48,074 bases of DNA from Pseudooceanicola lipolyticus (GTDB lineage Bacteria > Pseudomonadota > Alphaproteobacteria > Rhodobacterales > Rhodobacteraceae), in the NCBI RefSeq assembly GCF_002786325.1, contig NZ_PGTB01000015.1:1-48074 (forward strand), read 5' to 3'. Shown one piece after another: positions 4,224 to 40,076 of the stretch; the first letter of the stretch is position 1; each line of letters begins with the position of its first letter. The position numbers and the translations under genes are program-made. Under the pieces are notes generated by a model. That model was given only the letters and a program-made list of their open reading frames with translations, was not told where the DNA came from and made no database searches.

Positions 4224-4224
4224 G

Positions 4225-4413: not shown

Positions 4414-4428
4414 AATTGGAGAAACAAT

Positions 4429-10215: not shown

Positions 10216-10284
10216 CGCGGGAACGTTTCCTTAATCCCTCGCTGTCATGCTGCGGGCGAAGAGTCCGTAGGCAAGGGGGCCGGG

Positions 10285-10674: not shown

Positions 10675-10711
10675 CCACCCCGCGCCGGCAGCGCCGCAAG
10701 GGGCCGCTGCC

Positions 10712-10745
10712 GCAAGAAAAGGGCCCCGCCGGGACGGGCGGGGCC
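10712..10745 (-). terminator. Rho-independent terminator of ccrM
   Basis: On the minus strand a 9-base-pair stem (10737-10745 with 10722-10730, loop 10731-10736) is followed by CTTTTCTT. It lies 60 bases past the ccrM stop. Confidence 0.85.
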
Positions 10746-10804
10746 AGTTGCGTGCCATGTGTCAGGCCACAGGCACCGGCGGTAACTTGGAATTCTGTCT
10801 GCTG

Positions 10805-12002
<1,198 letters not shown>

Positions 12003-15985: not shown

Positions 15986-16025
15986 CGTTACCACTCCGTT
16001 CCGGCCAGCAGGATCGCGACGCGCG

Positions 16026-18417: not shown

Positions 18418-19036
18418 CTTCTTCCGAGGGCCGGACGCGTCGCCAGACCTGTTTCTGTCCTGAGAGCCGCTGCCGGCCCGGGAATCGGGGCAAGGCGGCG
18501 CCCAAACGAACCCGCTGTCGTCTTTTTCGTACTCTTCAACCGCAAACTGAACCACTGGCAACGACCATCAAAGAGGGCGAGTGAACCCGCAAAGTTACAA
18601 TCCTGTATATTTGTGGCGATTCCAAGCAACTCTCGAGCCTCCGATTGTGACTTTTGCAGATCCGCAACTTTTGGTTGATCAGTTTAAGCACCTCGGACCA
18701 GCGCAAAAACCTTGATCGGGCCAAGAATTATTGGGCCAATCGAAAATTGATTGAAATTTAACGTCTGCAATTTGCCGATCCCGGCCGAAGCAGGGCAAAA
18801 TACACCCATAGGTTGCATTGGTTCACGCCCCGTCAACAATAGGCATTTCAAGGCGTAACCATCTCCCAAATAGCCCAAAATTAACCCGAATCGGTTGCCA
18901 AGAATCGGTTTTTGATCCACGGTTCAAGGCGTCGATCAGCGTAAAGTGGCCGGAATAAGGCTACATCGTCCAATCATTGAGAGTACTTTTGGGCACAGTG
19001 TTTTGGTGCTTCATCCCACGGTAGTTAGTGAGAAAA
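18418..19036. promoter_or_regulatory. AT-richer divergent control region of the XrtD/polysaccharide operons
   Basis: About 620 bases with no credible gene, clearly less GC-rich than the flanks. It must hold promoters for the leftward ATPase-Wzz-kinase operon and the rightward sugar transferase-TPR-XrtD operon. I see two nested direct-repeat pairs: TTCAAGGCGT at 18847-18856 and 18923-18932, and GAATCGGTT at 18888-18896 and 18902-18910. The GAATC in each copy of the latter is a CcrM site. A short dyad CAATC/GATTG spans 18737-18753. A possible sigma-54-like TGGC-N10-GC element lies at 18947-18962. Confidence 0.6.
18888..18910. repeat. Tandem 9-base direct repeat GAATCGGTT, period 14
   Basis: Two identical copies (18888-18896, 18902-18910) with a 5-base spacer, bracketed by two copies of TTCAAGGCGT. 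Candidate regulator-binding sites; each copy contains a GANTC sequence. Confidence 0.55.
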
Positions 19037-19726
19037 ATGACGTTACAAGTGAATGATTTGGACCATCGGGACGCCACACAAGTCGTCGGTTCGTACAACA
19101 AGTCGGGGAGCGGACAACCCAATCTGTATCGCGCATTCGGGAAACGGATGCTGGATATACTCCTGGTGGGTATGGCTGCGCCTTTTGTGGTACCACTCGT
19201 CCTTGCGATGGCAGCCTTGGTGGCTTTGGACGGGCACAACCCCTTCTACCTACAGGAGCGGGTTGGCCGGAACGGCCGCGTGTTCCGAATCTTCAAGCTG
19301 CGCACGATGGTTCCCAACGCAAAAGCGATGTTGGAAACCTACCTGGCACGCGACGGCGATGCCCGCGCCGAATGGGAAGAAACGCAGAAACTGCGCCACG
19401 ACCCCCGCGTCACGCGGATCGGCCAGATTCTGCGGGCAACCTCGCTGGACGAACTGCCCCAACTTCTCAATGTGCTGAAAGGCGACATGTCCCTGATCGG
19501 TCCCCGGCCGATGATGGTGGAACAGACCGATCTTTACCCCGGCTCCGCCTATTACAAACTGCGTCCCGGAATTTCCGGCTCGTGGCAGGTTTCGGACCGA
19601 AATGGTACCACTTTTGCCGCACGCGCGACATATGATACCGAATACTACCAGTCGATGTCTCTTTGGCTGGATGTAAAAATCATGGTACTCACAGTTGTTG
19701 TCGTCTTGCGGGGCACCGGGTGCTGA
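19037..19726 (+). CDS. Initiating sugar transferase (ExoY/WcaJ-like polyprenyl-phosphate phosphotransferase), copy 1
   Basis: The 229-residue enzyme moves a sugar-1-phosphate from a nucleotide sugar to undecaprenyl phosphate, the first step of repeat-unit synthesis. One membrane helix or hairpin (ILLVGMAAPFVVPLVLAMAA) is followed by the family core: FRIFKLRTM, TSLDELPQLLNVLKGDMSL, IGPRPMM, LRPGISGSWQVSDRN. The small size is typical of ExoY-type enzymes without the N-terminal extra helices. Start is ATG at 19037; a GTG at 19028 is possible. It leads the operon with the TPR lipoprotein and XrtD. A close paralogue lies at 26721-27395. Confidence 0.92.
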   Translation: MTLQVNDLDHRDATQVVGSYNKSGSGQPNLYRAFGKRMLDILLVGMAAPFVVPLVLAMAALVALDGHNPFYLQERVGRNGRVFRIFKLRTMVPNAKAMLETYLARDGDARAEWEETQKLRHDPRVTRIGQILRATSLDELPQLLNVLKGDMSLIGPRPMMVEQTDLYPGSAYYKLRPGISGSWQVSDRNGTTFAARATYDTEYYQSMSLWLDVKIMVLTVVVVLRGTGC

Positions 19727-19778
19727 ACCCGGTCCCGGTCTAAAAAGTCGAGTAAGTTTCGTGTCTAAAATTGGTGTG

Positions 19779-22250: not shown

Positions 22251-22283
22251 CGCGGCTTAAGGCCGAGCCAGAAACGGACGCTG

Positions 22284-23876
22284 ATGGAAAAGACCTTTGA
22301 CAGCCCCAAAGCGACGCTGCCGGCCACCGATCTGGCCGGGCTGAGCATCTTCACCTTCGCGGTGGTCGCGGCGGTGCCGGTGTTCTGGCTCGGCCTTACT
22401 TCGCTGGCCAGCGCCTGGACCACGCCGGAATACAGCCACGGGCCGCTGATCCCGCTGATCTCGCTCTACCTGTTCCTGCGCGAATTGCGGCACCGACCGC
22501 TGCCCGACCTCCGCGTCACCGACCGCTGGCCCGGCGTGCTGGTGATGGGCTTGGCCCTGCTGCTCGGCATCTTCGGCAATCTGACCCGCATTCCCGATAT
22601 CGTGACCTATGCGATCATCATCTGGATCGGCGGGCTGGTGCTGGCGGTGTTCGGCTGGCAACGCGGCCGCACCCACCAGTTGCCGGTGCTGCACCTGGTC
22701 TTCATGCTGCCGCTGCCCCAGTTCGTTTACTGGAAACTGACGGTCTTCCTGCAATGGGTCTCGTCGGTTCTGGGCGTGTGGTTTGTCAGCCTGGCCGGCG
22801 TGCCAGTCTACCTGGAAGGCAACGTGATCGACCTGGGCATTTACAAGCTGCAGGTGGCCGAGGCCTGTTCCGGCCTGCGCTATCTGTTCCCGATCCTGTC
22901 CTTTTCCTATCTCTTCGCGATCCTCTATCGCGGCCCGTTCTGGCACAAGGCGGTGCTGCTGCTGTCGGCGGCGCCGCTGACCGTGTTCATGAATTCGGTC
23001 CGCATCGGCGTGATCGGCATCCTGGTCGACCGGTACGGCATCGAACAGGCCGAAGGTTTCCTGCATTTCTTCGAGGGTTGGGTGATCTTCCTCATCTGCG
23101 TCGCGCTGCTGTTCGGGCTGGCGATGCTGCTGCAATACATGGCGCCGAACCCCAAGCCGCTGAGCGAGGTGATCGACCTGGATTTCGAAGGTTTCGGCCG
23201 CATCTCGGCCCGGATCCTGGCCATCCGCCCCTCGCTGGCGCTGGCGGTGGGCGGGCTGCTGACGCTGGCCGCATCGGTGGGCTGGATGACCATGGGTAAT
23301 ATCCAGGGGCGCGAGATCGACCGCACACCCTTCGCGATCTACCCGCTGACGGTGGGGGATTGGCGCGGTTCGACCTATCGGTTGGACGAAGATGTGGAAT
23401 CCGTGCTGGCCGCCTCGGACTATCTCAACGCCGCCTATGTCAACCTCGACGACGGCAGCAATGTCAGCCAGTTCGTCGCCTTCTACGAAAGCCAGACCGA
23501 AGGCAGCGGCATACACTCGCCCGAGGTTTGCCTGCCGGTGGGCGGCTGGGAAATCTTCAGCCTCGAACCCTATCAGGTGGACATGACCGGCACTGCCTAT
23601 GGCACCTTCACGCTGAATCGCGCGGTGATCCAGAAAGGAGTTTCGCAACAGCTGGTCTATTACTGGTTCGAACAGCGCGGCAAACGCTTTGTCAACGACT
23701 TCAAGGCCAAGGCCTCGGTGATCGTCGACAGCTTGCGGATCGGCCGTACCGACGGCGCCCTGGTGCGCTTTATCACCCCCATCGGCGAAGATGAAACACC
23801 CGAAGCCGCCGATGCCCGCCTGCAGTCGTTCATGCGCCAGTCGCTGCCCAGCCTGCCGCGTTTTGTACCGCTTTAG
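22284..23876 (+). CDS. xrtD: Exosortase XrtD with fused EpsI domain (VPLPA-CTERM type)
   Basis: 530 residues. The N-terminal 300 residues are a polytopic exosortase, a predicted transpeptidase that cleaves C-terminal sorting signals of exported proteins. Catalytic residues are visible as C195 ([10 protein letters not shown]), R240 (NSVRIGV) and H261 (FLHFFEGW). After a last helix near 305-325, the C-terminal 200 residues form an EpsI domain with the family motif [13 protein letters not shown]. The fused architecture is the one known for XrtD, which sorts VPLPA-CTERM proteins in Rhodobacteraceae. No protein with such a C-terminus is encoded in this window, so its substrates must be elsewhere. 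Confidence 0.93.
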
Positions 23877-24009: not shown

Positions 24010-24483
24010 ATGTCACAGACCCGAGTCATGGCCGTCGCTTCGGCGGGGGGGCACTGGGTGCAGTTGCTGCGGCTGCGTCCCGCCTGGAAGGGCATGGATG
24101 TCACCTATGTTTCGACCGATCCGGGCCTGAACGCGATGCTGGCCGAGAAATGCGGCCCCGAAAACGGCTGGCGCTTCTTCGCCGTGGTCGAGGCCAACCG
24201 CTGGACCAAGCTGCGGCTGGTGCGTCAACTGTTTCAACTGCTGCGGATCGTGCTCAAAACACGCCCCGATGTGATCGTCACCACCGGCGCGGCGCCGGGC
24301 TATTTCGCGATTCGGATCGGCAAGCTGCTGGGCACGCGCACGATCTGGGTGGACAGTATCGCCAATGCCGAGGAATTGTCGCTGTCCGGTGAACAGGTCG
24401 GTCATCACGCCGATCTGTGGCTGACGCAGTGGAGCCACCTTGCCCGGCCCGATGGACCTGACTATCGGGGCTCGGTCATATGA
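24010..24483 (+). CDS. PssD/Alg14-like glycosyltransferase membrane subunit
   Basis: The 157-residue protein matches Alg14/PssD, which anchors and completes a two-protein GT-B glycosyltransferase. Visible are the N-terminal ASAGGHWVQLLRL, the central RPDVIVTTGAAPGYFAIRIGK, and GTRTIWVDSIANAEELSLSG. It has the acceptor-binding half of the enzyme; the donor half is the next gene, with which it shares ATGA (24480-24483). The pair most likely adds the second sugar to the lipid-linked intermediate. In rhizobial PssD/PssE that sugar is glucuronic acid, but the donor here is not determined by sequence. Confidence 0.88.
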   Translation: MSQTRVMAVASAGGHWVQLLRLRPAWKGMDVTYVSTDPGLNAMLAEKCGPENGWRFFAVVEANRWTKLRLVRQLFQLLRIVLKTRPDVIVTTGAAPGYFAIRIGKLLGTRTIWVDSIANAEELSLSGEQVGHHADLWLTQWSHLARPDGPDYRGSVI

Positions 24484-24998
24484 TTTTTCTGACCGTCGGA
24501 ACGCAGGGGCCGTTCGACCGGCTGACCAGGGCGGTGGACGCCTGGTGCGCAGCCGGCACCGGACCCGAGATCTTCGGCCAGATCGGCGCATTGTCGCACG
24601 GGAATTACAAGCCGCGGCATTTTGAATGGGTCGAACGTTTGTCGCCGCATGATTTCGACGAACGCTTTGCCCAGGCCGAACTGATCGTGTCCCATGCCGG
24701 CATGGGGTCGATCATCTCGGCGCTGCAGGCCGGCAAACAGATCGTGATCATGCCGCGGCGCACCCATCTGCGCGAGCACCGCAATGACCATCAGGTCGCC
24801 ACGGTACAGAAAATGGCCGACCGGTCGGGCGTGCATGTCGCCCAGGACGAAAATCAGATTGCCGCCTGTATCGAACAGGCCCTGGAACGGATCGCCACCC
24901 CCTCCAATCAGCGGATTGGCGAATTTGCCGACGAAACCCTGATCGATGCCCTAAGGACATTCATCCTGGGAAAGCAGGAACGGGCGCCCCGAACCTGA
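24480..24998 (+). CDS. PssE/Alg13-like glycosyltransferase catalytic subunit
   Basis: The 172-residue partner starts MIFLTVGTQGPFDRL and contains the GT28 C-terminal nucleotide-sugar site: LIVSHAGMGSIISALQAGKQ, IVIMPRR and the HRNDHQV segment. Together with the preceding PssD-like protein it forms a complete GT-B enzyme at the membrane. The start overlaps the pssD stop by four bases, so the two are translated in a coupled way. A long hairpin covers the last codons and the stop. Confidence 0.9.
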   Translation: MIFLTVGTQGPFDRLTRAVDAWCAAGTGPEIFGQIGALSHGNYKPRHFEWVERLSPHDFDERFAQAELIVSHAGMGSIISALQAGKQIVIMPRRTHLREHRNDHQVATVQKMADRSGVHVAQDENQIAACIEQALERIATPSNQRIGEFADETLIDALRTFILGKQERAPRT

Positions 24999-27403: not shown

Positions 27404-27441
27404 CGCCGCGCGCGGCGCCCGGTCAGGCCTTATGCGGCCTG
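27404..27441. terminator. GC-rich dyads between convergent sugar transferase 2 and SDR genes
   Basis: A 14-base perfect palindrome CGCCGCGCGCGGCG (27404-27417) is followed by CAGGCC/GGCCTG (27424-27429, 27436-27441) overlapping the SDR stop. Location suggests termination; no clear T-run. Confidence 0.4.
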
Positions 27442-28458
27442 TCTGGCAGGTGGGGGCAGATCGCCGCTGGCCCGATAGGCGGCGATGATATCGACGATTT
27501 CGCCGGCAAAATCGGTTCGCGGTTCGTAGCCCAGCAACTTGCGAGCCTTTGAAATGTCGAAGGCGCGGTTTTTCAGAAAGAACGACACCCGGCGCGGGAA
27601 CAGCGGCGGTTCGATGCCAAAGGGCTTGCACACCGCCTCGGTCACATGCGCCAGCGCCATGATCGGCCCCACGGGCAAATGCAGCTTGGGTTCGGGCACC
27701 TCCAAGGCCTTGGCGATCTGGTGCACGTCCTGTTTCAGCGTGCTGTATTCCTTGCCCGCGATCAGGAACGCTTCGGCATTCAGCTCGTCCTTGAGCATCC
27801 CCAGTTCGAAGGCGCGTGCCAGGTCGCGAACGTCCAGCCAATGCGTCAGGGCCTCGCCCTTGCCGATATAGAAGAACTTGCCGTTGGCGACCATCTTGAA
27901 CAGTTTCAGGATGCGCGTATCGCCCGGCCCGTAGATCATTGCCGGGCGGATGATCACGCCACGGATCTTTTCCTGTTCGAAACAGGACATGACGATCTTT
28001 TCGCCCTCCAGCTTCGACACCTGATAGGCATCGCTGGGATTGAAGGGCGCGGTCTCGTCCGCGGGCGGGTTGGCAATATGGCTGTGCACGCCATTGGTCG
28101 AACAATGGACAAAGCGTTTCACCCCGGCGGCAATCGCCGCGTCCAGGATGTTGCGGACGCCCTGCACGTTGACTTCGTCAAAGGCGCTGTCAGGCACGCC
28201 GGCGGTGCGGAACAGCGCCGCGATATGATAGATGCCATGCACGCCCGCCACCGCCGCGTTCAGCGTGTCGGGTTTCTGCAGGTCGGCGATCACCACCTCT
28301 TCGACCAGATCGCGCAGCGGTTCGGCCTGTTCCGGCTTGCGCACCATGATGCGCAGGCGCTGGCCCTGGGCCGCAAGGTGGCGCACCAGGTGCGACCCGA
28401 CAAAACCGGCCGCCCCGGTCACAAGATAAAGGGGGCTGGCGCCCGTGGCCTCGGTCAT
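27430..28458 (-). CDS. NAD-dependent epimerase/dehydratase family protein (extended SDR)
   Basis: 342 residues. The Rossmann motif is GAAGFVG (15-21), the serine/threonine pair S120-T121 lies in HCSTNGVHS, and the catalytic pair is Y145-K149 (YQVSK). FIRPAMIYGPGD-like sequence (IRPAMIYGPGD) follows. The C-terminal half has SDR-a substrate-binding helices. It likely modifies a nucleotide sugar or a lipid-linked sugar for the glycan made by this operon, but dihydroflavonol-reductase-like members of the family act on other substrates, so the reaction is not fixed. It is the last gene of the minus-strand operon, 18 bases after the degenerate GT2. Confidence 0.85.
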   Translation of the reverse strand: MTEATGASPLYLVTGAAGFVGSHLVRHLAAQGQRLRIMVRKPEQAEPLRDLVEEVVIADLQKPDTLNAAVAGVHGIYHIAALFRTAGVPDSAFDEVNVQGVRNILDAAIAAGVKRFVHCSTNGVHSHIANPPADETAPFNPSDAYQVSKLEGEKIVMSCFEQEKIRGVIIRPAMIYGPGDTRILKLFKMVANGKFFYIGKGEALTHWLDVRDLARAFELGMLKDELNAEAFLIAGKEYSTLKQDVHQIAKALEVPEPKLHLPVGPIMALAHVTEAVCKPFGIEPPLFPRRVSFFLKNRAFDISKARKLLGYEPRTDFAGEIVDIIAAYRASGDLPPPARQAA

Positions 28459-28476
28459 TCTGCGATGCCTGCCTTC

Positions 28477-29490
28477 TCAATCGTCATCCGTCTGCGGGAT
28501 CTCGCGCGCGGTCTTGCCGTCGCCCTTGATGATCTTGCTGACCTTGTACTGCTTGATCTGGCGGCTGTTGGAGAAAATGATGATTTCGCCCACCAGGCCC
28601 AGTGCGATGATCTGCACGCCCAGCACGATCATCAGCACGCTGAAGATCAGCGCCGGACGGTCGGCAAGCGGCACATCCAGGAACAGGCGTCCGAACAGCA
28701 ACGCCGCGGTATAGATCGCGCCGATGAGGAAGATCGGCAGGCCGATCGAACCGAAAAAGCGCAGCGGGCGATACAGGAACTTCAGCACCACGAACAGCGT
28801 CACCGCGTCGAACAATGCCCGCAGGTGGCCCATCGGCTTGAACACGAATTTCGGCGCCTCAACCTCGCCGGAATAGGCTTTGACCTGCGATTCCGTCACC
28901 CGATACCCGCGCGAGGCGGCGATCACCGGGATAAAGTGCTGGCGCACCCCAAAGCCGCCGATTTCTTCCAGAACATCCCGGCGGCACAGGCGGACGCGGC
29001 AGAACACGTCCGAAACGGTATGGCCGAAGAACAGGCGGAACGATCGCTGCATCAGCGCCTGGCGGGTGCCGCCGATCGGCTGGTTGTCGCGGGCGCAGAC
29101 CACCATGTCCTGCCCGTCGATCGCGTCGAACAGCTTGTTCAACTCTTCCGGCGCCAGTTCCGGCCATTCCGGCAGGGTCAGGACCAGATCGCCCTTGGCC
29201 CGCTTGTAGGCGGTGGCCAATTCGCCATCTTCGCCACTCCATGGGCGGCGTTCGAATACCGTCAGCTCCGGCCAATCGGCGGTCAGCTTGGACAAGCCGG
29301 CCAGCGCCTCGGTGGCATCCGGGTTGGTCATGCACAGAATTTCATAGGACAGGTCGAGCCCGTCCAGCACGACGCGATAGGTCTTGATCGCCTCGGCCGC
29401 CTTGGGATTGCGCGATACGGCGACAACAACCGACAGCTTCATCGCCGCTTCGGTATCGCCCTTGATGGGGTGCACATTTGTGGCCTGCAT
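28477..29490 (-). CDS. GT2-like membrane protein lacking the catalytic motifs (GtrB/DPM1-like, probably inactive)
   Basis: 337 residues with the layout of DPM1/GtrB polyprenyl-phosphate glycosyltransferases: an N-terminal GT-A domain (KLSVVVAVSRN onwards) and two C-terminal transmembrane helices, ending in LGLVGEIIIFSNSRQ like the GtrB tail. However the nucleotide motif DDGS is replaced by MTNPD (54-58), and the metal-binding DxD position reads LPEWPE (106-111). Both are intact in the adjacent GT2, so this protein is likely a non-catalytic partner or has another chemistry. AAGGA precedes the ATG at 29490; a second ATG at 29442 is possible. It lies 12 bases after the active GT2. Confidence 0.8.
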   Translation of the reverse strand: MQATNVHPIKGDTEAAMKLSVVVAVSRNPKAAEAIKTYRVVLDGLDLSYEILCMTNPDATEALAGLSKLTADWPELTVFERRPWSGEDGELATAYKRAKGDLVLTLPEWPELAPEELNKLFDAIDGQDMVVCARDNQPIGGTRQALMQRSFRLFFGHTVSDVFCRVRLCRRDVLEEIGGFGVRQHFIPVIAASRGYRVTESQVKAYSGEVEAPKFVFKPMGHLRALFDAVTLFVVLKFLYRPLRFFGSIGLPIFLIGAIYTAALLFGRLFLDVPLADRPALIFSVLMIVLGVQIIALGLVGEIIIFSNSRQIKQYKVSKIIKGDGKTAREIPQTDDD

Positions 29491-29502
29491 CGAAAAAATT
29501 CC

Positions 29503-30432
<930 letters not shown>

Positions 30433-30590
30433 GAATACAGTCCTTTCGCCTCGTCCGGGCGCCACCCTTGACGACTTTCTTGATGCTGCGTCGCCGCGAT
30501 GATGATCAAGAGAATTCGCCTTAAACGGTCATAGACCCCAATTTATGTCCAACTTTAGTGCCCAATACGGCCCGGGCACAGCCAATTGTT

Positions 30591-31781
30591 TCAAGTTGCA
30601 CCCGCGGCAGACGCCCGGCGCCGCAACCGCGGGATAATCTCGTTCTCCAGAAATCCGGTCAGCTTGCGCCGATAGGCCGCCGGGCTGAATTCGGCCCGCA
30701 CCCGTTCGGCCGCCTGCCGTGCCAGCCGGTCGCGCAGGTCCGGATCGGCCAGCAGCGCGCTGATGCCCCGGGCCATATCCTCGGCGGTGGGGTCGACCAG
30801 CATGGCGATATCGTCGTCCAGCACCTGGGTATGGGTCGGCAGTCGCGTCGCCAGCAGCGGGCGGCCACTGTCGAGGTAGGAATAGACCTTCATCGGCGTG
30901 TTGCGCCCCTGGGTACGGGGCGAGGCAACGATGGTGGCCTGCGCCATGTACCGCGCGATTTCCTCCACCGGGCGCGGCCCGGTAAAGGTGATCTTGTCCC
31001 CGGCGCCGGTACGGTCGGCAAGCGCGCGATGAGTCTCGATGGTGTCCGGCGTGCCGCCGATCACCACCAGATGCGCCTCGGTGCCGTCGGCCACCGCCTT
31101 GGCAAACCCTTCGATCAGCAGGCCGACCCCCTGATAGCCTTCCAGATTGCCGATATACATCAGCACCGGTGATTCATAGGACCAGCCTTCGGGCGGCGCG
31201 GTTTCGGCGTCGAACTCGACCAGGCTGACATCTTCCAACGTCTGCACCGGCAGGGTCGGGGCATAATCGCGCACGATATCGCCCAGCGCCTGACAGCAGG
31301 GGATCGCACCGATGCTGCCGCGCACAGCCGTCCGTTCGGCCGCGGTCAGCGCCGTGTTCAGCCAGGACGGCAGGCCGAACTTGTCGTTGATCTGTTCGGG
31401 GATCGAACTGTCGATGTCATAGATATAGGGCACCCGGAAGAACGGCTTCAGCACCAGCGTCATGAACGCCGCCTCTTCCACCGCGATCACCAGATCATAG
31501 CGATGGCGCAGCAGCCGCCAGGCCAGCATCGGGAACATCGCCGCATCGACCAGAAGCTTTTTCAGCGAGAACCCGGGCGGCATGCCCTTGGTGCCGGGAA
31601 CGCGCGGCGCGCGGATCACCTGCACATTGGGCAGGTCCACGTCCTCGCCCTCGGGGAAGACGATGGCATCACAGCGATGCCCGGCCTCGCCCAGCGATTG
31701 CAACAGCATACGCACTGCAATCGGGGTTCCGCGCTGGATGAAGAACGGTTGTGGGGCAACAACCAGTATCTTCAGACTCAT
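30591..31781 (-). CDS. Family 4 glycosyltransferase (GT-B)
   Basis: 396 residues with a GT-B layout: an N-terminal acceptor domain starting LKILVVAPQPFFIQRGTPIA and a C-terminal nucleotide-sugar domain with LMYIGNLEGYQGV, a GxxP turn in TFTGPRPVEEIARYM, and PRTQGRNTPMKVYSYLDSG in the place of the E-x7-E motif. The first glutamate of that motif is not obvious, a variation seen in some GT4 groups. It is cytoplasmic and membrane-peripheral by expectation and adds an internal sugar to the lipid-linked unit. Its start overlaps the preceding methyltransferase stop by four bases (ATGA). Confidence 0.88.
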   Translation of the reverse strand: MSLKILVVAPQPFFIQRGTPIAVRMLLQSLGEAGHRCDAIVFPEGEDVDLPNVQVIRAPRVPGTKGMPPGFSLKKLLVDAAMFPMLAWRLLRHRYDLVIAVEEAAFMTLVLKPFFRVPYIYDIDSSIPEQINDKFGLPSWLNTALTAAERTAVRGSIGAIPCCQALGDIVRDYAPTLPVQTLEDVSLVEFDAETAPPEGWSYESPVLMYIGNLEGYQGVGLLIEGFAKAVADGTEAHLVVIGGTPDTIETHRALADRTGAGDKITFTGPRPVEEIARYMAQATIVASPRTQGRNTPMKVYSYLDSGRPLLATRLPTHTQVLDDDIAMLVDPTAEDMARGISALLADPDLRDRLARQAAERVRAEFSPAAYRRKLTGFLENEIIPRLRRRASAAGAT

Positions 31782-32536
31782 TTGGGTAACCTCTGGGCTC
31801 GAATAATCACCGGATTACCCATGCGCGACGCAAACGGCGAAAATATGGCCTCACTGGCACGCGAGATTGGCACGTTCTTGATAAAACGGTGAAACGCCAT
31901 CGGCACCACGAACTGGCCGACATGGGCATCCGGGTCGAAGCCATTGTCGCGAAAGGCGGTGGTGACCGCCTTATGCGGCAGCCGCGTATAGGTGCGCGTG
32001 TCGGTCTCGATCGCCTTCTTCAGCCCGAAGAGAAGCGGATACAACCGGTGAATGCCGCTGACCAACGGGAAATCGACGATCACCGCCTTGCGGGCCACCC
32101 GGCAGGCCGAGGCCAGGAAAAGCTCCCAATCGGCGACATGCGCCATCATCCGCATCGCGATCACGATATCATAGCTATGGTCGGGTTGTTCCAGCTGCTC
32201 GACGCTGCCCAACACGTAGGGAGCGGTGCCGCCGCTGACCCGGTTCAGCCGTGCGGCGGCCTCTTCGCAACTGACCAGGGCAGTCACCTCGCGGCCCTGC
32301 GCCATCAGATGCGGCGTAACCTGCGCATGGCCGCCGCCGACATCCAGAATGGTGCCGCCCCCGACATCACGCAGCAGGTCGTCAATGGCCTGTGTCTGCA
32401 CCGACAACATCCATTCACCCGCGGTGCCGGCGAATCGCTTGGCATAATCCTCGGTCGAGGACACGATATCGGGGGATGTGGAAACGGACACGGGCTGCAG
32501 GTCGGACTGGGGCGTTTCTCGATACAATTCACTCAC
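31778..32536 (-). CDS. Class I SAM-dependent methyltransferase
   Basis: About 252 residues. The SAM-binding motif I is ILDVGGGHAQVTP, the acidic loop and motif II follow as YDIVIAMRMMAHV, and VIVDFPLVSG is motif III. The last 100 residues carry a longer region typical of small-molecule or sugar methyltransferases. It probably methylates a sugar or lipid carrier in the operon. No ATG start exists for this frame: GTG at 32536 or 32539 is my choice, TTG at 32578 and GTGs at 32491 and 32464 are alternatives. It is the first gene of the minus-strand glycosylation operon, divergent from the GT-C gene. Confidence 0.8.
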   Translation of the reverse strand: MSELYRETPQSDLQPVSVSTSPDIVSSTEDYAKRFAGTAGEWMLSVQTQAIDDLLRDVGGGTILDVGGGHAQVTPHLMAQGREVTALVSCEEAAARLNRVSGGTAPYVLGSVEQLEQPDHSYDIVIAMRMMAHVADWELFLASACRVARKAVIVDFPLVSGIHRLYPLLFGLKKAIETDTRTYTRLPHKAVTTAFRDNGFDPDAHVGQFVVPMAFHRFIKNVPISRASEAIFSPFASRMGNPVIIRAQRLPK

Positions 32537-32831
32537 CACATACAAGACAACAGAAACACATTCGCGACGCCCCGCCAATTATGCCGGATGCTTGTTTTCC
32601 GGGCAGGATATCACGCTAAAAAACGGCTTCGGGCTATCCCGGTTGGCCCTTAAAATCAATAAAAAAGGTTTTTTGCGCCCAGACGATTGCCTATGCCGGA
32701 ACTCGAACATTCAATATCCAAGCCAGGTGCGTGCCGTCGCGGCAATTCTGCCCGATTCTGCAGCGTCACCAGGTCCGGGGCAGCCGCCAGGGACCGAGGC
32801 TATTTGAGTTATAAGTGCCGGGTCTGAGCAC
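32537..32831. promoter_or_regulatory. Divergent promoter region with an A6-GG-T6 element
   Basis: About 295 bases between the methyltransferase and GT-C genes. The middle (32650-32675) is AT-rich and contains AAAAAAGGTTTTTT (32661-32674), a likely intrinsically bent or nucleoid-protein site. No gene is credible here. Confidence 0.45.
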
Positions 32832-34418
32832 ATGAGCGAATTGCAGATGCAACAAAGCGCGCGGGCGGTCTCGCATCGGGCGTTGGTGATTTTGACCGGA
32901 CTGCTGATTGCGCTTGTCGCGCTGCTGTTCCGCACCCAGTCGCTGAACGGGATCGAACGCTTTGACGAGTTCTATCACCTGCTGGCGGCGCAGGGCTGGC
33001 TCGACACCGGCGCTCCGACCATCCTCGACGGGCAATATACCCGGACCCAGCTGTTTACCGGCGCGGTGAAAGAACTGTTCCGGCTGACCGGCAGTGAAAC
33101 GGTTGCCACCGGGCGGATGCTGGCGGTGGCGGCGGGCGCGCTGCTGCCCCCGGTTCTGTTCTTTTGGGTTCGCGCCCGCGCCGGTTGGCTGGCCGGGTTG
33201 GTCGTGGCGGCGCTGGCCATCCTGTGGCCGCATGGCATCGAAGAGGCGCAGACGCTGCGGTTTTACACCTGGCATGTGCTGTTCGTCACGGTGGGTGCGC
33301 TGGCGATTTTCGAGATGGTCGAAGGGCGCGCGGGCTGGGGCGGCCTGGCGCTGTTGGCCTTCCTCGCGGCGATCTATCTGCAGATCACCTCGGTTATCGC
33401 GTTTGCCGGCGTCCTCCTGTGGCTCTGCCTGGCCCATGTCCTGCCGTGGATGTGGCAGCACCGGATGCGCTGGCGGCTGATCGGCGGCACGCTTGTTGCC
33501 GCCGCCGCCGCCGGTGCCGCCGCCTGGGCAGCCGGTATTCTTGAGGCCCTGTGGGCGCAGTACCGCTGGGTGCCGGGCTGGGGCGAGTTGAACCAGAACA
33601 ACGTGACCTTCTACCACAAGCTGCTGCGTGACTATTACCCGATGCTGTGGGGGCTGTTCCCGTTTGCGGCGATCTTCGCCTTCGTGTTCCGGCCGCGGCT
33701 GGCCTCGTATGCGGCGGTGCTCTTCATCGTCATCCTGGTCGGCCAGAGTTTTGGCGGCATGAAGGCGGCGCGCTATTTGTCCTATGCGATGCCGTTCTTC
33801 TTTATCGTGTGGGCACTGGCGCTGGCCGGGCTGGCCCGGGCCCTGCGCGGGCCGGTTCTGGCCGGGCTGCGGCCGCTGGATCCCACCGGGCACGGCTGGC
33901 TCGCCGGGGTGGCGGTGGCGGTGGCGGCGCTGTTCGCGCTGTCGGTCAACCCGTTCTTCGAACGCTCGGTCGATACGCTGCGCGGCAAGCCGTTCCTGTC
34001 CTGGCCGGTGATCGACTGGTATCCGCTGCATGATGTGGTCGGCGACTGGGCCGAGGCGCCCTATCGCGTCACCACGCATGAATTGCACACGATCGCGGCG
34101 CTGGGCGATTTTGACGCCCTGTTCAGCGCTGGCCGGTTGACCGAATTGCCGCCTTTCACCGAATTTGTCACCGACCCGCGCACCGGGCGGCCGGTCTTTG
34201 GCCAGCCCGGCAGCTTTGCCGCCATCCTGCGCTGCCATCCCGAGGGCCTGTTCGTGACCGAAACCCGCGAATGGGACAAAGACCTGAAAACCGCGCTGAT
34301 GCCGGTCTTCGACGCCTCCGGCCGGCGGATCGCGATCCGCGACAAGGACGGGCTGCTGGCACTGCACTGGAGCGGCGCAGGTGTTTCCGAAGCCGCTTGC
34401 GCCGCCCTGCCGGGTTGA
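32832..34418 (+). CDS. GT-C-fold membrane glycosyltransferase (ArnT/PMT-like)
   Basis: 528 residues with roughly nine to eleven hydrophobic helices in the first 375 residues and a soluble C-terminal domain of about 150 residues. The first periplasmic loop carries the acidic pair D45-E46 in IERFDEFYHL, as required in PMT/ArnT-type enzymes, which move a sugar from a polyprenyl-phosphate donor on the periplasmic face. The DPM1-like GT2 on the opposite strand could provide that donor. It is followed after 15 bases by the HxH hydrolase-like gene and is probably the first gene of that operon. The acceptor is unknown. Confidence 0.82.
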   Translation: MSELQMQQSARAVSHRALVILTGLLIALVALLFRTQSLNGIERFDEFYHLLAAQGWLDTGAPTILDGQYTRTQLFTGAVKELFRLTGSETVATGRMLAVAAGALLPPVLFFWVRARAGWLAGLVVAALAILWPHGIEEAQTLRFYTWHVLFVTVGALAIFEMVEGRAGWGGLALLAFLAAIYLQITSVIAFAGVLLWLCLAHVLPWMWQHRMRWRLIGGTLVAAAAAGAAAWAAGILEALWAQYRWVPGWGELNQNNVTFYHKLLRDYYPMLWGLFPFAAIFAFVFRPRLASYAAVLFIVILVGQSFGGMKAARYLSYAMPFFFIVWALALAGLARALRGPVLAGLRPLDPTGHGWLAGVAVAVAALFALSVNPFFERSVDTLRGKPFLSWPVIDWYPLHDVVGDWAEAPYRVTTHELHTIAALGDFDALFSAGRLTELPPFTEFVTDPRTGRPVFGQPGSFAAILRCHPEGLFVTETREWDKDLKTALMPVFDASGRRIAIRDKDGLLALHWSGAGVSEAACAALPG

Positions 34419-34433
34419 GGACAACAAGACCGA

Positions 34434-35213
34434 ATGACAAACGAAACGACACATAAGCTGGTGGTGGACGGCCATGTCCACCTTTACCCCTGTTTCGACA
34501 CCGCGCGGTTCCTGACCGCGGCCCAGACAAACCTGGCCGTTGCGGCGCACCGCTATGGCGCCGGCGCCGGCGCGCTGCTGTTCACCGAAACCGCCCGCGA
34601 CAACGCCTTCGACGCGTTGAAAGAGGGCTCATTGCTGCCCCCCGGCTGGCAGGCAGACGGCGCTGCGGACGATCCGGCGCTCTTGCTGCGCTCGGAGCAG
34701 GGCGGCCTGCCGCTGATCATCGTGGCGGGACGGCAAATTCAGACCCGCGAACGGATCGAAGTGCTGGCCTTGGCCAGCGATGCGCCGGTCCCGGCCGATG
34801 GCACTGCACTGGCCGAGGTGCTGGCCGCGCTGGCCGCCGATGGCGTGCCCGCGGTCCTGCCCTGGGGTGTTGGAAAATGGATGGGGGACCGCGGCCGCGT
34901 CGTCACCCAGACCTTCGCGCAGACCCCCGGTCTGCTGGCCGGGGACAATGCCGGGCGCCCGGTGGGTTGGCCCGCGCCGGCGCTGTTTGCGGGTCACCCG
35001 GTTATCCCCGGCACCGATCCGCTGCCCTATTCCGGGGCCGAAACCAATGTCGGGCGCTACGGCTTCGTTCTGGAGGCGCCGGTGGCGCTGTCGCGTCCCG
35101 GGGCGGCAATCCGGGCCTGGCTGGCCGGCCTCACCGCATCGCCGCCCAGCTTTGGCCGCCGCGCCGGCCCGACCGGCTTTGCCGTCGGACAGGCGCGGAT
35201 GCGGATGGGCTGA
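34434..35213 (+). CDS. Uncharacterised HxH protein resembling metal-dependent hydrolases (amidohydrolase/PHP-like)
   Basis: 259 residues. The start VVDGHVHLYPCFD contains H14 and H16 as in the first metal-binding motif of amidohydrolase and PHP proteins. Further patterns are LPWGVGKWMGDRGRVV (about 142-157), LLAGDNAGRPVGWP (about 167-180) and GTDPLPYSGAE (about 194-204), the aspartate of the last being a possible metal ligand. I recognise no named family. No signal peptide is visible, so it is cytoplasmic. It sits between a GT-C enzyme (15 bases) and a GlpD-like flavoenzyme (6 bases), which makes a joint pathway likely. The reaction is not assignable. Confidence 0.75.
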   Translation: MTNETTHKLVVDGHVHLYPCFDTARFLTAAQTNLAVAAHRYGAGAGALLFTETARDNAFDALKEGSLLPPGWQADGAADDPALLLRSEQGGLPLIIVAGRQIQTRERIEVLALASDAPVPADGTALAEVLAALAADGVPAVLPWGVGKWMGDRGRVVTQTFAQTPGLLAGDNAGRPVGWPAPALFAGHPVIPGTDPLPYSGAETNVGRYGFVLEAPVALSRPGAAIRAWLAGLTASPPSFGRRAGPTGFAVGQARMRMG

Positions 35214-35219
35214 GAACCG

Positions 35220-36815
35220 ATGCAGCGCGCCTCCCTCGATACCCTGACTCAAACCTCCTATGACGTCCTAGTTGTCGGCGGCGGCATTTATGGCGTCATG
35301 GCGGCGCGCGAGGCGGCGGGGCGGGGATTGCGGGTCGCGCTGATCGACAAGGGCGATTTCGGATCGGGCATCTCGCATAATTCGATGAAGGTGATGCATG
35401 GCGGCATCCGCTATGTGCAGCATCTCGATTTCTCGCGGCTGCGCGATTCCGCGCGCGAGCGCAGCTTTTGGCACAGCTGCGCGGCAGACCACATCCGGGC
35501 GCTGCCCTTCCTGATCCCGATGTTCGGCTATGGCATCCGGGGGCCGCTGGCCTTCGGCGCCGCGGCGCAGCTGTATAACCTGCTGTCGCGTGACCTGCGC
35601 CGGTCGGACTACCCGGCCGCCCGCGCCATCGGCCCCGCGGCCGCCCGTGCGCAACTGGGCGATTACGCCCCGCCCGGGCTGACCGGCGGCGGGTTGTGGA
35701 GCGATGGGCAGATCCGCGATGCCAACCGCCTGATGCTGGCCTGCCTGGCGGCCGCGGACGCTGGCGGCGCGGATCTTGCCAATTATGTCGAGGCGGTTGC
35801 GTTCACCACCGATAACGGGCGCGTCACCGGCGCGCGGGTGAAAGACCATGTCACCGGCGCCGCGGGCGATATCCGCGCCACCGTCACGCTTTCGTGCACC
35901 GGGACCGCGGCGGCGCGGCTGGCCCGGCAGGCGGCGCCGCAGATCCCGCAGGACCGGTTCCCGCAATTTGCCCGCGCGATGAATATCGTGGTGCGCCGCG
36001 CGCCGCCCAAGATCGGGCTGGGCGTGGTCAGCACCAGCCGCTCGGACGCGGTGGTCGACCGGGGCGGACGGATGTATTTCCTGACCCCCTGGCAGGGCCA
36101 GACCATCATCGGCACCTACGAAGCGCCCCATGACGGCAGCGAAAGCTGGAGTCCAACCTCCGAAGACATCGCCGCCTTCGTGGCCGAGATCAATACCGCC
36201 TGCCCCAAGATGGCGCTGACCACCGACGAGGTGATCCATTGCTATGGCGGGCTGATCCCGGCCGATGTCGACGATGCCGCCGGGCCGAAACGGCAGACGC
36301 GGGGCACGCTGCTGGACCATTCCGCCACCGACGGGCTGGATGGGCTGATCAGTTCGGTCGGGATCAAGTACACCACCGCCCGGCTGATCGCCGCGCGCAG
36401 CATCGACTTGGCGCTGGCGCAGCTGCCGGGCCGGGTGCCACGCCCGTTCGACAGCCTGCAGACCGCGCTGCCCGTTGTCGGCGACCCCAGCTTTGACCCT
36501 GATGATTCGGCGGCGCTGCAGGCTCGGGTCCACGCGGCGGTGACCCACGAATTTGCCGTGACGCTTGAGGATGTGGTGCTGCGCCGCAGCCGCCTGGCCG
36601 AAACCGGCGGGTTGGCGGGCGGCAAGGGGCTTGCCCGGCTGCAAGCGATTGCAACCGTGATGGCGGGCGAATTGGGCTGGAACGCCGAGCGCCAGGCGGA
36701 CGAGGTCGCCCGGACGGCGCGAAGGTGCGGCATGGAGTCCGCAGCCACCGGGCCGGAATGCCGGGGTGACACCGCAAAAAGCTTGCCAGAACAAGCCGGG
36801 TCATGTTCCGATTAA
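35220..36815 (+). CDS. GlpD-like FAD-dependent oxidoreductase
   Basis: 531 residues. The FAD-binding motif is VVGGGIYGVMAAREAA near residue 17, and the glycerol-3-phosphate dehydrogenase signature continues with SMKVMHGGIRYVQ and ARERSFW. GxKYTTAR-like sequence (VGIKYTTARLIA) closes the DAO fold, and the C-terminal DAO_C helical domain (LEDVVLRRSRLAETG) is present. It is therefore a relative of aerobic glycerol-3-phosphate dehydrogenase, but its placement six bases after an HxH protein inside a glycan locus, with no glp genes, suggests a different polyol-phosphate or sugar substrate. A true GlpD cannot be excluded. Confidence 0.82.
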   Translation: MQRASLDTLTQTSYDVLVVGGGIYGVMAAREAAGRGLRVALIDKGDFGSGISHNSMKVMHGGIRYVQHLDFSRLRDSARERSFWHSCAADHIRALPFLIPMFGYGIRGPLAFGAAAQLYNLLSRDLRRSDYPAARAIGPAAARAQLGDYAPPGLTGGGLWSDGQIRDANRLMLACLAAADAGGADLANYVEAVAFTTDNGRVTGARVKDHVTGAAGDIRATVTLSCTGTAAARLARQAAPQIPQDRFPQFARAMNIVVRRAPPKIGLGVVSTSRSDAVVDRGGRMYFLTPWQGQTIIGTYEAPHDGSESWSPTSEDIAAFVAEINTACPKMALTTDEVIHCYGGLIPADVDDAAGPKRQTRGTLLDHSATDGLDGLISSVGIKYTTARLIAARSIDLALAQLPGRVPRPFDSLQTALPVVGDPSFDPDDSAALQARVHAAVTHEFAVTLEDVVLRRSRLAETGGLAGGKGLARLQAIATVMAGELGWNAERQADEVARTARRCGMESAATGPECRGDTAKSLPEQAGSCSD

Positions 36816-36883
36816 GGTTAGCGTTCTGTGGGTTAGGCGAACGCGGTGTGTAAGTGACGATTGTTCAGGAGTAACGATATACC

Positions 36884-37678
36884 ATGGCTGATATCCAGTA
36901 TAATGCGCTTGCCGAGTCGCCTGACGCAGATGGGGAGAGCGCATCGCCCAACAAGGATCACGTGATCAAGGCGCTGTCCGAACCCGGTTCGGCGCTGGAG
37001 AAATACAGCACCTTCTTTGTCGGCCGACCCGGCTGGAGGCCCTTCCTGCGCTATGAGCTCGCCATGTTGCTGGCACAGAACACTGCCGGCGCGCTGGGCT
37101 TTCAACTGCGCAAGATGCTGTTCCCCGGGTTGTTCGGCGGGGTTGGCGGCGGGGTGAATTTCGGGCGCAACATCTCGCTGCGCTGTCCCAGCCGGATGAC
37201 GCTGGGCGATCATGTCACCATCGACGACAACTGCGGCCTGGACGCGCGCGGCGGCAAATCGGCCGCTGATTTCACCATCGGCGACCGCACGCTGATCGCG
37301 CGCGACACGGTATTGGCGGTCAAACAGAATTTCCTGCGGATCGGCAAGGATTGCTCGATCGGCAGCCAGTGTTTCCTTGGCGCGGTATCGGGCATTGAGA
37401 TCGGCGATCATGCGATCATTGCGGGCCAATGTTATATTGGCGGCGGACGCTACAAAACCAAGCTGGGCGCCGGGCCGATGGTCGAGCAGGGGCTTGAATC
37501 CAAGGGCCCCATCCTCATCGGCTCGGATGTCTGGATCGGTGCCGGGGTGCAGGTGCTGGATGGTGTCCGCATCGGCAATGGCGCCATCGTCGGCGCCGGT
37601 GCGGTGGTCACCAAGGACGTGCCGGACAATGCCATCGTCGGCGGTACACCGGCCAAGGTCATCGCGATGCGCAGCTAG
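36884..37678 (+). CDS. Hexapeptide-repeat (left-handed beta-helix) acyltransferase
   Basis: 264 residues. After an N-terminal helical part of about 85 residues come two blocks of hexapeptide repeats: FGRNISLRCPSRMTLGDHV and on, then IGKDCSIGSQCFLG, and the terminal IGSDVWIGAGVQVLDGVRIG with GGTPAKVIA, as in LacA/CysE-type acetyltransferases. It likely O- or N-acetylates a sugar of the polymer or its precursor. Cytoplasmic, trimeric by family knowledge. It follows the GlpD-like gene after 68 bases, with AGGAG upstream of the ATG at a long distance. Confidence 0.87.
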   Translation: MADIQYNALAESPDADGESASPNKDHVIKALSEPGSALEKYSTFFVGRPGWRPFLRYELAMLLAQNTAGALGFQLRKMLFPGLFGGVGGGVNFGRNISLRCPSRMTLGDHVTIDDNCGLDARGGKSAADFTIGDRTLIARDTVLAVKQNFLRIGKDCSIGSQCFLGAVSGIEIGDHAIIAGQCYIGGGRYKTKLGAGPMVEQGLESKGPILIGSDVWIGAGVQVLDGVRIGNGAIVGAGAVVTKDVPDNAIVGGTPAKVIAMRS

Positions 37679-38037
37679 GGCAGCCGCCGCCAGTGTCTGC
37701 GCCGTCGCGTGAAACTGGCCGCGTATCCTGATCGGCAGCCGGTCCGGGGTGACCGGTTTCAACAGCGCAGCACCCGACCCGCCGATTCAGGTCTGCACCA
37801 TTTCGATCAAATTGCCGTTCACGACATTGATGTCGGAATTTTCAACACCAACGCCGTTGTTTTTCAGGCGGCGCTGCAAGGAACCAAAGCGATGCAAGGC
37901 GCAATGCCGAGGCGAGTAGAAAACGTGGGCCATGCGTGTCAGGCCCTGACGCGCGGACTGGCCCCAATGCGCCTGGCCCTTGCCGATAGGATCGGCACAT
38001 CGCGGTGGTACCCTGTTGCGGGGAGGGAGGCCGGATC
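37679..38037. other. Intergenic stretch of 359 bases with no clear gene on the plus strand
   Basis: No plus-strand coding signal is convincing. The minus strand holds a 48-codon frame with protein-like composition (37787-37933), listed separately. A GGGAGGGAGG ribosome-binding site at the right end serves the gene at 38038. The stretch may be gene debris plus a promoter. Confidence 0.5.
37787..37933 (-). CDS. Possible 48-residue protein or remnant
   Basis: The minus-strand frame starts with ATG at 37933 and ends with TGA at 37787. The product begins MAHVFYSPRHCALHRFG and includes RRLKNNGVGVENSDINVV. The composition is more protein-like than shadow frames in this GC-rich DNA, with AT-ending codons in about a third of positions. 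The frame stays open upstream of the ATG across the 38038 start region, so it may be the tail of a decayed gene. The ribosome-binding site is weak. No family recognised. Confidence 0.25.
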   Translation of the reverse strand: MAHVFYSPRHCALHRFGSLQRRLKNNGVGVENSDINVVNGNLIEMVQT

Positions 38038-38970
38038 ATGCCCGCAACCTTAGGCCATATCGCGCTCCAGGTGCCGCTGGGCCGGGTCTTGCGGCAGGAT
38101 ATCGACACCAAATGGCTACTGGCCGGATGTATCATTCCCGACCTGCCCTGGATCCTACAGCGGCTTGCCGGTGCAACCGGGCTGGTCGCGGCACTGGACC
38201 TGCGGGCCTATGCCATCGCGCAAAGCGCGCTGGCGGTCAGCCTGCTGTTCTGCGCGCTGCTTGCCGCCTTTGCCCTGCGGCCGATGCTGATCTTTGCCGT
38301 GCTGTCGCTCGGCTGCCTGGTGCACCTGCTGCTCGACGCGTTCCAGACCAAATGGGCCAATGGCGTGGCGCTGGCCGCGCCGGTCAGTTGGGAGCTGACC
38401 AGCTTTGGTTTTTTCTGGCCCGAGGACTTCACCAGCCTGTTCCTCCTGGCGCTGGGCACCTTCGTGGCCATCCGGCTGTGCTGGATCGCGCCGCCGTCGG
38501 GCGCCGACCTGGTCCGCCCGGGGGCTGGCCGCCTGACACTGGCCGGGATCTGCCTTGCCGCCTATCTGGTGCTGCCGGTGCCGATGATGCCCGCGGTCGA
38601 GGCGGCAAATCTGCACGGCGTGGCAACCCTGCGCCAGGTCGCCGACCGGCCCGGCCGTGCCATCGCCTTTGACCGCAACCAGGTCACCGTGGGGCCCCAG
38701 GACACGACCCTTGCCGCCTGGACCGGTGAACAGTTCCGCCTGACCGGCGCCGTACCCGCCCAGGACGGGCTCTATTCGCTCAGCGGCCGGTTCATCAGCG
38801 CGACCGAAGTCGAGGTGCTGGCCAGCCATCGGCATGCCGGGCCGCTGCGCGACATCGCCTCGTATCTGGGACTGCTATTTGTGTTGCTTTGGTGGGCAGC
38901 CAGCCTGTGGGACAGGATCAAACAACCAGAACGTGCAGGTCGACTTGCGACCAACGATGGTAGAAAATGA
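38038..38970 (+). CDS. DUF457/YdjM-like inner-membrane protein (predicted metal-dependent hydrolase)
   Basis: 310 residues with several transmembrane helices. Conserved polar positions are H7 (TLGHIAL), D35 (IIPDLPW) and the pair H96-D100 (LVHLLLDAF), the spacing seen in DUF457/YdjM membrane proteins annotated as metal-dependent hydrolases. A soluble part (about 190-275) lies between the helix groups and could be periplasmic. The ATG at 38038 follows GGGAGGGAGG at seven bases, a strong site; the open frame to 38005 is not needed. Its stop overlaps the start of the next gene (ATGA). The substrate is unknown. Confidence 0.7.
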   Translation: MPATLGHIALQVPLGRVLRQDIDTKWLLAGCIIPDLPWILQRLAGATGLVAALDLRAYAIAQSALAVSLLFCALLAAFALRPMLIFAVLSLGCLVHLLLDAFQTKWANGVALAAPVSWELTSFGFFWPEDFTSLFLLALGTFVAIRLCWIAPPSGADLVRPGAGRLTLAGICLAAYLVLPVPMMPAVEAANLHGVATLRQVADRPGRAIAFDRNQVTVGPQDTTLAAWTGEQFRLTGAVPAQDGLYSLSGRFISATEVEVLASHRHAGPLRDIASYLGLLFVLLWWAASLWDRIKQPERAGRLATNDGRK

Positions 38971-40076
38971 CCACAGATAGTAATGACACCCGAAGATTCG
39001 CCGACAGATCGCGGCAGCAAACCCCGGCTTACGCCGGCAGAGAGGGCGAGCAGAGCGCAATGGACAAACCCGATATCGCCGCCGCCCGGCAGCGCCGAAG
39101 CAACCTTCGCACAACTCTGACCTGGCTGCTGCGCGCCGCGATATCCTTCGGCCTGATCTTCTATATCCTCTGGGGAACCGAGGTGGGCGAGGTTCTGGCC
39201 GCCATCCGGGTGGCCGACCTTCGCCTGATCCTGCTCGCGCTTGGGTTGCAAATTCTTGGGGCGCTGATCATGGCGATGCGCTTTGGCATATTGCTGGCGG
39301 TCCGCGACACCCGGCCGGGCCTGGCCTATCTGTTCGTGTCGACGATGAGCGCCGCGTTTTTCCGTCAGTTCCTGCCGTCGACCCTGGGTGGCGATGCGCT
39401 GCGGGGGTATGACGCCTGGCGTGCCGGGGCATCGAAGGGCTTTGCCGTGCTGGCACTGTTTGTCGACCGTCTGCTGGGCCTGGCGGTGATGACCGCCTTT
39501 GCGGTTCTGGCCATTGCGTTGTTTGGCAGCGACCGCGGCGACATGTCCGGCGCCTATCGCTGGGCGATTGCCGGGCTGATCCTGGTGATGATCGCCCTCG
39601 GCCTGCTGTTCTATCTGCCGGCGCGGCAGAAAGGGCAGCTGTCCGCGCTGGCCAGCCGCCTGCCCGCCCGCTTGTCGGCCCTTGCCGAAAAGCTGGGGCA
39701 AATCGCGACCACATTTCACGGCAAGGGCGGCGTATTGGCCAAATCAGCGGCGCTGACCCTGGTACTGCAGGTCAATGTGGTGCTGTTTTATTGGGTCGTC
39801 GCGCAGAGCCTTGGGCTGGAGGTCCAGTTCTGGGCCTTTTTTGTCATCGTCCCGGTGACCGTGCTGGTGATGATGGCGCCGATCACCATCAACGGCATTG
39901 GATTGCGCGAGGCGATCCTGGTCTATCTTTTGGGAATATGGGGGGTCAGCAGCGAACTGGCCCTGGCGCTGGCCTGGCTGGAATTCGGCATCACCCTGAC
40001 CTTGGGTTTGATTGGCGGCGTCATCTTTGCGCTGCGCCCGTCACGGTCAGAAATCCTGTCCAGCACCCAGAGCTAG
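38967..40076 (+). CDS. YbhN/UPF0104-family (LPG-synthase transmembrane-domain-like) integral membrane protein
   Basis: 369 residues with about eight hydrophobic helices. The family motifs FLPSTLGGDALRGYDAW and PITINGIGLREAILVYLLG are present. The family includes the flippase part of MprF and is often found with glycosyltransferases, so a lipid or lipid-linked-sugar translocation role is plausible but not shown. The first 30 residues are polar and poorly conserved-looking; a second ATG at 39060 (MDKPDIAAARQ) is a possible start. It overlaps the preceding membrane gene by four bases, implying a coupled pair. Confidence 0.83.
   Translation: MTTDSNDTRRFADRSRQQTPAYAGREGEQSAMDKPDIAAARQRRSNLRTTLTWLLRAAISFGLIFYILWGTEVGEVLAAIRVADLRLILLALGLQILGALIMAMRFGILLAVRDTRPGLAYLFVSTMSAAFFRQFLPSTLGGDALRGYDAWRAGASKGFAVLALFVDRLLGLAVMTAFAVLAIALFGSDRGDMSGAYRWAIAGLILVMIALGLLFYLPARQKGQLSALASRLPARLSALAEKLGQIATTFHGKGGVLAKSAALTLVLQVNVVLFYWVVAQSLGLEVQFWAFFVIVPVTVLVMMAPITINGIGLREAILVYLLGIWGVSSELALALAWLEFGITLTLGLIGGVIFALRPSRSEILSSTQS

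Follow-up and report, generated by a model that had tools for sequence, protein, structure and literature searches.

The stretch analysed here, referred to below as the window, covers 48,074 nucleotides of Pseudooceanicola lipolyticus (contig NZ_PGTB01000015.1 of assembly GCF_002786325.1), and carries side by side the genes of a small protein with an H-x-H motif (the HxH protein) and of a flavoenzyme that resembles the glycerol-3-phosphate dehydrogenase GlpD. We propose, with a probability of roughly 0.55, that a conserved module, of which these two genes are the most constant members, produces or alters a single glycosyl unit within an exported polysaccharide. The conserved module itself and the non-GlpD status of the flavoenzyme we consider nearly certain, while its role on a glycosyl unit is somewhat probable and the detailed order of steps given below is doubtful. 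The module consists of HxH, the flavoenzyme, a family 4 glycosyltransferase (GT4) and a short-chain dehydrogenase/reductase (SDR), often with an acyltransferase and a methyltransferase and sometimes with a YdjM or DUF4184 membrane protein. It was found in Pseudomonadota, Cyanobacteriota, Planctomycetota, Ignavibacteriota, Acidobacteriota and Thermodesulfobacteriota.

The gene neighbourhood was compared over a set of HxH loci that numbered 93 at first (92 fetched and the window; L001, which is the window itself, and L010 were left out) and 85 after the removal of contig repeats (L002, L004, L006 and L007) and short loci (L003, L005, L008 and L009). These are the best 80 of 152 relatives in a scan of genome_contigs, four plasmid loci and the window, and any relative within 10 kb was counted as a partner. 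The flavoenzyme was the most frequent partner (75 of the 85 loci), followed by the GT4 (63), the SDR (62), the acyltransferase (46), the methyltransferase (41), a family 2 glycosyltransferase (GT2, 32), a flippase-like protein (25), YdjM (23), an AsnB-like protein (18), a GT-C type glycosyltransferase (11) and DUF4184 (6). Where at least 8 kb was available on both sides (52 loci), the flavoenzyme was present at 50, the GT4 and the SDR at 40 each, the acyltransferase at 35, the methyltransferase at 29 and the GT2 at 26, and flavoenzyme, SDR and GT4 occurred together at 38. The original prediction, which had asked whether HxH travels with its GlpD-like and GT-C neighbours across phyla, thus holds for the first and fails for the second, since GT-C relatives are limited to Pseudomonadota. 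The flavoenzyme gene lies on the HxH strand at 70 of the 75 loci and on the opposite one at five (it is divergent, for example, in L081 and L035); the presence of both orientations indicates that the link with HxH is more than one inherited operon. Tree distances of the two proteins co-vary (r 0.72, 74 loci), also within 20 Rhodobacterales loci (r 0.65, a value that none of 5000 permutations reached); L012, L034 and L063 were left out of this comparison. Four plasmid records carried an HxH relative, three from Rhodobacterales and one from Azospirillaceae, and nine pattern matches in viral contigs included no relative.

The flavoenzyme lies outside GlpD by score, tree and residues. It scored 154.5 and 148.3 bits against two NCBIfam GlpD equivalogs, below both cut-offs (352 and 360). 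A quick LG+G4 tree was built from 103 rows (101 of them different), with support from the SH-like approximate likelihood ratio test (SH-aLRT). In it a single branch with support of 100 parted 83 flavoenzymes of HxH loci from 20 GlpD/GlpA references, among them GlpD and GlpA of E. coli and two genes from the genome that holds the window; these last two are of GlpD type and cluster with GlpD of E. coli. When 23 further sequences of the family were added (126 rows), 21 grouped among the references (SH-aLRT 100) and two, both from genomes with HxH, in the flavoenzyme clade. We also compared 41 GlpD-side sequences with 82 distinct clade members, in the numbering of E. coli GlpD. At the Arg317 position 40 of the 41 GlpD rows have Arg and 81 of the 82 clade rows have Leu, Ile, Val, Thr or Ala; Arg332, equally kept in 40 of 41 GlpD rows, is mostly Lys, Thr or Val in the clade, with Arg in at most 15%. 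His233 is replaced by Asn in 80 clade rows and Leu63 by Arg in 81. Retained from GlpD are the His50, Arg54 and Tyr55 positions (81 of 82 each) and those of Lys354 and Thr356 (82 of 82 each). We take Arg317, Arg332 and the other compared positions to belong to the phosphate and substrate pocket of GlpD; in passages of a paper on a Sulfolobus enzyme, terms for these residues were absent or appeared in references only. The substrate of the clade would not be glycerol 3-phosphate, and its members should not be taken as a sign of glycerol catabolism.

The same association was found among 295 genomes of the family. HxH matched (E ≤ 0.001) in ten of them, and in nine, the window's own included, once G104 was removed, where a short weak match with three internal TGA codons (L010) was judged spurious. 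The flavoenzyme search (E ≤ 1e-25, four candidates scored per genome) gave matches in 33 genomes, with the clade in all nine that have HxH. Among the 24 matching genomes without HxH, 21 had a match placed among GlpD (G204 also had a second, unplaced one), and three (G057, G039 and G001) had weak matches alone, of 90.7–91.2 bits and unplaced in the tree. Counting these three as absent, the clade occurs in 9 of 9 HxH genomes against 0 of 286 others (Fisher p 2.4e-17). The outcome named in advance against the original prediction, a flavoenzyme inside GlpD together with an HxH gene of no conserved association, did not occur.

The window resembles known XrtA/XrtD (PEP-CTERM) polysaccharide loci. 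It contains an XrtD (VPLPA-CTERM) exosortase (685.2 bits, cut-off 400), with XrtA-type ATPase, chain-length determinant and PrsT genes beside it (15122-23876; scores below the NCBIfam cut-offs), and a WbaP-type transferase that is also below its cut-off. An exosortase (PF09721) was detected in 97 of the 295 family genomes, in 8 of the 9 with HxH (the exception is G286) versus 89 of the 286 others (p 7e-4), and across phyla in 17 of the 24 HxH genomes tried. The suspected tie between HxH and exosortase loci is therefore real as an enrichment within the family and is not obligatory. In 20 exosortase loci taken as a control from family genomes without HxH, and searched at the same threshold of 50 bits, there was no relative of HxH, flavoenzyme, methyltransferase, GT2, GT-C or flippase-like protein, while the GT4 was found in five, the SDR in two, and the acyltransferase and AsnB-like protein in one each.

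Several points weigh against our proposal. The cross-phyla loci come from one scan with a single peptide pattern, LPWG[VLF]GKW. The profile hidden Markov models for the partners had genes from HxH loci as their training set, a bias towards these loci and against the controls, and 4 of the 20 control stretches were short (12.6–14.9 kb; the other 16 were of about 20 kb). The flavoenzyme is missing from 10 of the 85 loci, eight truncated by a contig end on one side or both and two, both from Kiritimatiellota (L069 and L070), with long flanks; these two and L060, L067 and L091 have none of the partners. Because the methyltransferase reaches 29 and the acyltransferase 35 of the 52 well-flanked loci, there is no fixed gene list. 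Finally, the assembly of P. lipolyticus carries 5.68% contamination.

The HxH protein had been described as having patterned motifs and no nameable family. It indeed has no match among Pfam and NCBIfam models, but structure prediction recognises a PHP fold (AlphaFold2, pLDDT, the predicted local distance difference test, of 96), with PsfC as the top PDB match. The alignment of its family had 75 rows after removal of L012 (broken HxH frame), L002, L004, L006, L007 and rows more than 80% identical, and 72 (the window protein and 71 relatives) once three further rows were taken out; 17 of its columns are invariant. None of these 72 members matches a PHP model of Pfam-A at E ≤ 0.1, a profile search of PDB sequences with the alignment returned nothing at E ≤ 10, and hhalign gave no usable signal against single PHP proteins and, against an alignment of eight, a probability of 63.5 in global and 17.9 in local mode. 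The H-x-H of PHP motif I is kept in all 72 (D12, H14 and H16). In the register of this weak alignment, the C-terminal D-x-H pair of PHP phosphoesterases, whose residues we take to be metal ligands, is not kept, with D195 in 72 rows and leucine (L197) at the histidine position in 71. The positions facing the other PHP ligands (TDH, GVE, H and AHP) are, with low confidence, E52/T53, Q101, E109 and W144. The structural search for metal ligands that had been suggested has thus yielded a fold, the ligands being read from the weak alignment; most of the canonical ones seem absent, and the chemistry of HxH should differ from that of known PHP phosphoesterases. At 12 loci (nine cyanobacterial and three proteobacterial) HxH and the methyltransferase share one open frame, and at one locus (L026) HxH is joined to part of the GT4. 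A fusion of SDR and HxH in L039 and L040, suspected from overlapping stop-to-stop frames, was rejected, as no HxH frame had an SDR match.

Judging from the genes, the flavoenzyme would oxidise a hydroxyl on some sugar-like compound that is not glycerol 3-phosphate, and would hand the electrons to a quinone, as GlpD does. The SDR would then act on the keto group formed, the methyltransferase and acyltransferase would decorate the unit, and the GT4 would attach it. The step of HxH may be coupled to methylation, and would probably be metal-dependent and use a remodelled PHP active site. In P. lipolyticus the route of the unit to the periplasm probably leads through the ArnC-like GT2s, the flippase-like protein and the GT-C enzyme with its ArnT fold. 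Tentatively, and at less than even odds, we suggest an undescribed pathway in which the GlpD relative has become a quinone-linked oxidase of a sugar or lipid-linked sugar. Its PHP-fold partner, with a remodelled site and frequently joined to a methyltransferase, would perform chemistry so far not known among PHP enzymes, and the product would be a novel glycosyl unit, methylated, oxidised or epimerised.

An attractive special case of the proposed module is a pair like the oxidoreductive epimerase DprE1/DprE2. Here the flavoenzyme would oxidise a hydroxyl of the polyprenyl-phosphate sugar provided by the ArnC-like GT2s, and reduction by the SDR would restore that hydroxyl in the opposite configuration. 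The epimerised sugar would be transferred in the periplasm by the GT-C enzyme, with HxH and the methyltransferase acting on the same lipid-linked sugar. The joint presence of flavoenzyme, SDR and GT4 at most well-flanked loci agrees with it, as do the GT2, flippase-like and ArnT-fold genes of the window and the nearest models of the SDR (HpnA, OleD and SdmB), whose names point to lipid-like substrates; the DprE1/DprE2 pair is described in literature abstracts. Like DprE1 and DprE2, the flavoenzyme and SDR share a locus, here beside a GT-C type enzyme, but DprE1 is, we assume, from another flavoprotein family, and the GT-C enzyme and the ArnC-like GT2 are each missing within 10 kb at most loci. 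In this specific form we consider it rather unlikely.

A weaker special case, and an unlikely one, is the polyol-phosphate route raised by the original prediction, in which the flavoenzyme would make a keto-polyol phosphate, HxH would be its phosphatase and the product would be attached to the polymer. It would fit the GlpD ancestry and the retained His50, Arg54, Tyr55 and Lys354 positions, the phosphoesterases known among PHP-fold proteins, and the donor half of the GT4, which is nearest to 3c4q (which we take to be MshA) and to PimA (4n9w). That match is restricted to the C-terminal half of the GT4, HxH differs at several of the positions aligned with canonical PHP ligands, and the idea is weakened because the Arg317 and Arg332 positions are altered in the clade.

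It is very improbable that HxH is a dinuclear iron enzyme like PsfC which works in series with the flavoenzyme and uses O2 for an oxidative step. PsfC (7rty), a metalloenzyme of the PHP superfamily from fosfomycin biosynthesis in pseudomonads, is 16–19% identical to HxH; no phosphonate genes were recognised beside HxH, and an O2-dependent reaction is less likely because the module also occurs in lineages that we take to be anaerobes. An ordinary glycerol-3-phosphate dehydrogenase that stands in a sugar-polymer locus by chance might be suggested by the DAO and DAO_C domains and by the recognisable likeness to GlpD models. It can be set aside given the separation of the flavoenzyme from the 20 references (SH-aLRT 100) and from the 41 GlpD-side rows, the two other GlpD-type genes of the genome and the conserved partners.

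An undescribed pathway at the locus is plausible on the gene content. We found no description of the HxH and flavoenzyme module in the open-access literature, a coverage that largely leaves out subscription papers and preprint servers; the superfamilies are known, and the literature searched seems to contain no account of the combination of genes, of the HxH family or of the flavoenzyme clade. What plasmid records list as a “hypothetical protein” and an “FAD-dependent oxidoreductase” becomes a testable pathway with named partners in named organisms, some of them cultured, and its product could be a new sugar modification on exported polysaccharides.

The contig that holds the window measures 53.9 kb and belongs to an assembly of 5.2 Mb and 439 contigs that is 99.16% complete. 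Its module partners form two divergent halves between 27430 and 40076, to which the ArnC-like GT2s and the flippase-like protein are added (Table 1). The compact run of four plus-strand genes (32832..37678, with gaps of 15, 6 and 68 bases) was confirmed by open reading frames (ORFs), domains and alignments, and the domains, homologue alignments, invariant columns and predicted fold make clear that these are real genes rather than chance frames. As a fixed unit of four it was rejected, given the rarity of GT-C relatives and the wider circle of partners. Beyond the four genes first drawn, the DUF4184 gene, 326 bases further on, and the flippase-like gene follow on the same strand, and on the other strand lie the genes of 27430-32578, whose relatives stand beside HxH in many loci. 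The GT-C assignment, made by eye, is supported by a predicted fold of the ArnT/PMT/OST type with ArnT as the best Foldseek match. Both GT2s have PRK10714, the ArnC model, as their best match, but fall far under its cut-off. In these genes the window is comparable with the ArnC/ArnT branch of aminoarabinose transfer to lipid A.

Table 1. Genes of the module and its surroundings in the window.
Feature	Position	Strand	Basis
Extended SDR, HpnA/OleD-like	27430..28458	-	HpnA 163.3 bits (cut-off 367.65); 3wj7 E 5.5e-40
Divergent ArnC-like GT2	28477..29490	-	PRK10714 72.3 bits (cut-off 529); no Pfam match at E ≤ 0.01
GT2, ArnC-like polyprenyl-phosphate sugar transferase	29503..30465	-	PRK10714 172.6 bits (cut-off 529)
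GT4 glycosyltransferase	30591..31781	-	Glyco_trans_1_4 69.4 bits; 4-base overlap with methyltransferase gene
S-adenosylmethionine-dependent methyltransferase	31778..32578	-	Methyltransf_11 46.8 bits
253-base gap between the divergent halves, presumed promoter region	32579..32831	.	Spacing
GT-C type membrane glycosyltransferase, 528 aa	32832..34418	+	Predicted fold; aligns with 8 homologues
HxH protein, 259 aa, PHP-fold, uncurated family	34434..35213	+	Predicted fold; alignment of relatives
GlpD-like FAD-dependent oxidoreductase, 531 aa	35220..36815	+	DAO 130.9 bits, DAO_C 39.7 bits; trees; residues
Hexapeptide-repeat acyltransferase, 264 aa	36884..37678	+	Hexapep 67.3 bits
DUF4184 membrane protein	38005..38970	+	PF13803 25.9 bits (cut-off 25)
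Flippase-like membrane protein (LPG_synthase_TM / TIGR00374)	38967..40076	+	LPG_synthase_TM 130.1 bits; TIGR00374 66.5 bits (cut-off 43.2)

Some variants of the locus were also seen. A YdjM-family gene adjoins HxH in many cyanobacterial loci (for example L025, 9318-9881) and a DUF4184 gene in some Rhodobacterales; in L045, L081 and L088 a DUF4184 relative follows immediately downstream of HxH and in the same orientation. The GT4 of the module appears as two adjacent ORFs in several cyanobacteria (for example L051, 6331-6945 and 6960-7613). In the Leisingera plasmid locus L012 the annotation splits both the flavoenzyme and HxH into two ORFs (3686-5181 and 10007-10827), and the module looks decayed. 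In L069 and L070 HxH stands beside an ORF that resembles gcvP by eye, with no search made. No tRNA was found in the window, which elsewhere has genes for an error-prone DNA polymerase (819-4223, above its cut-off) and a CcrM-like methyltransferase (10805-11908, below the equivalog cut-off), as well as two overlapping genes (24010-24483 and 24480-24998) for a PssD-like and a PssE-like glycosyltransferase half, each of which corresponds to one half of WelK.

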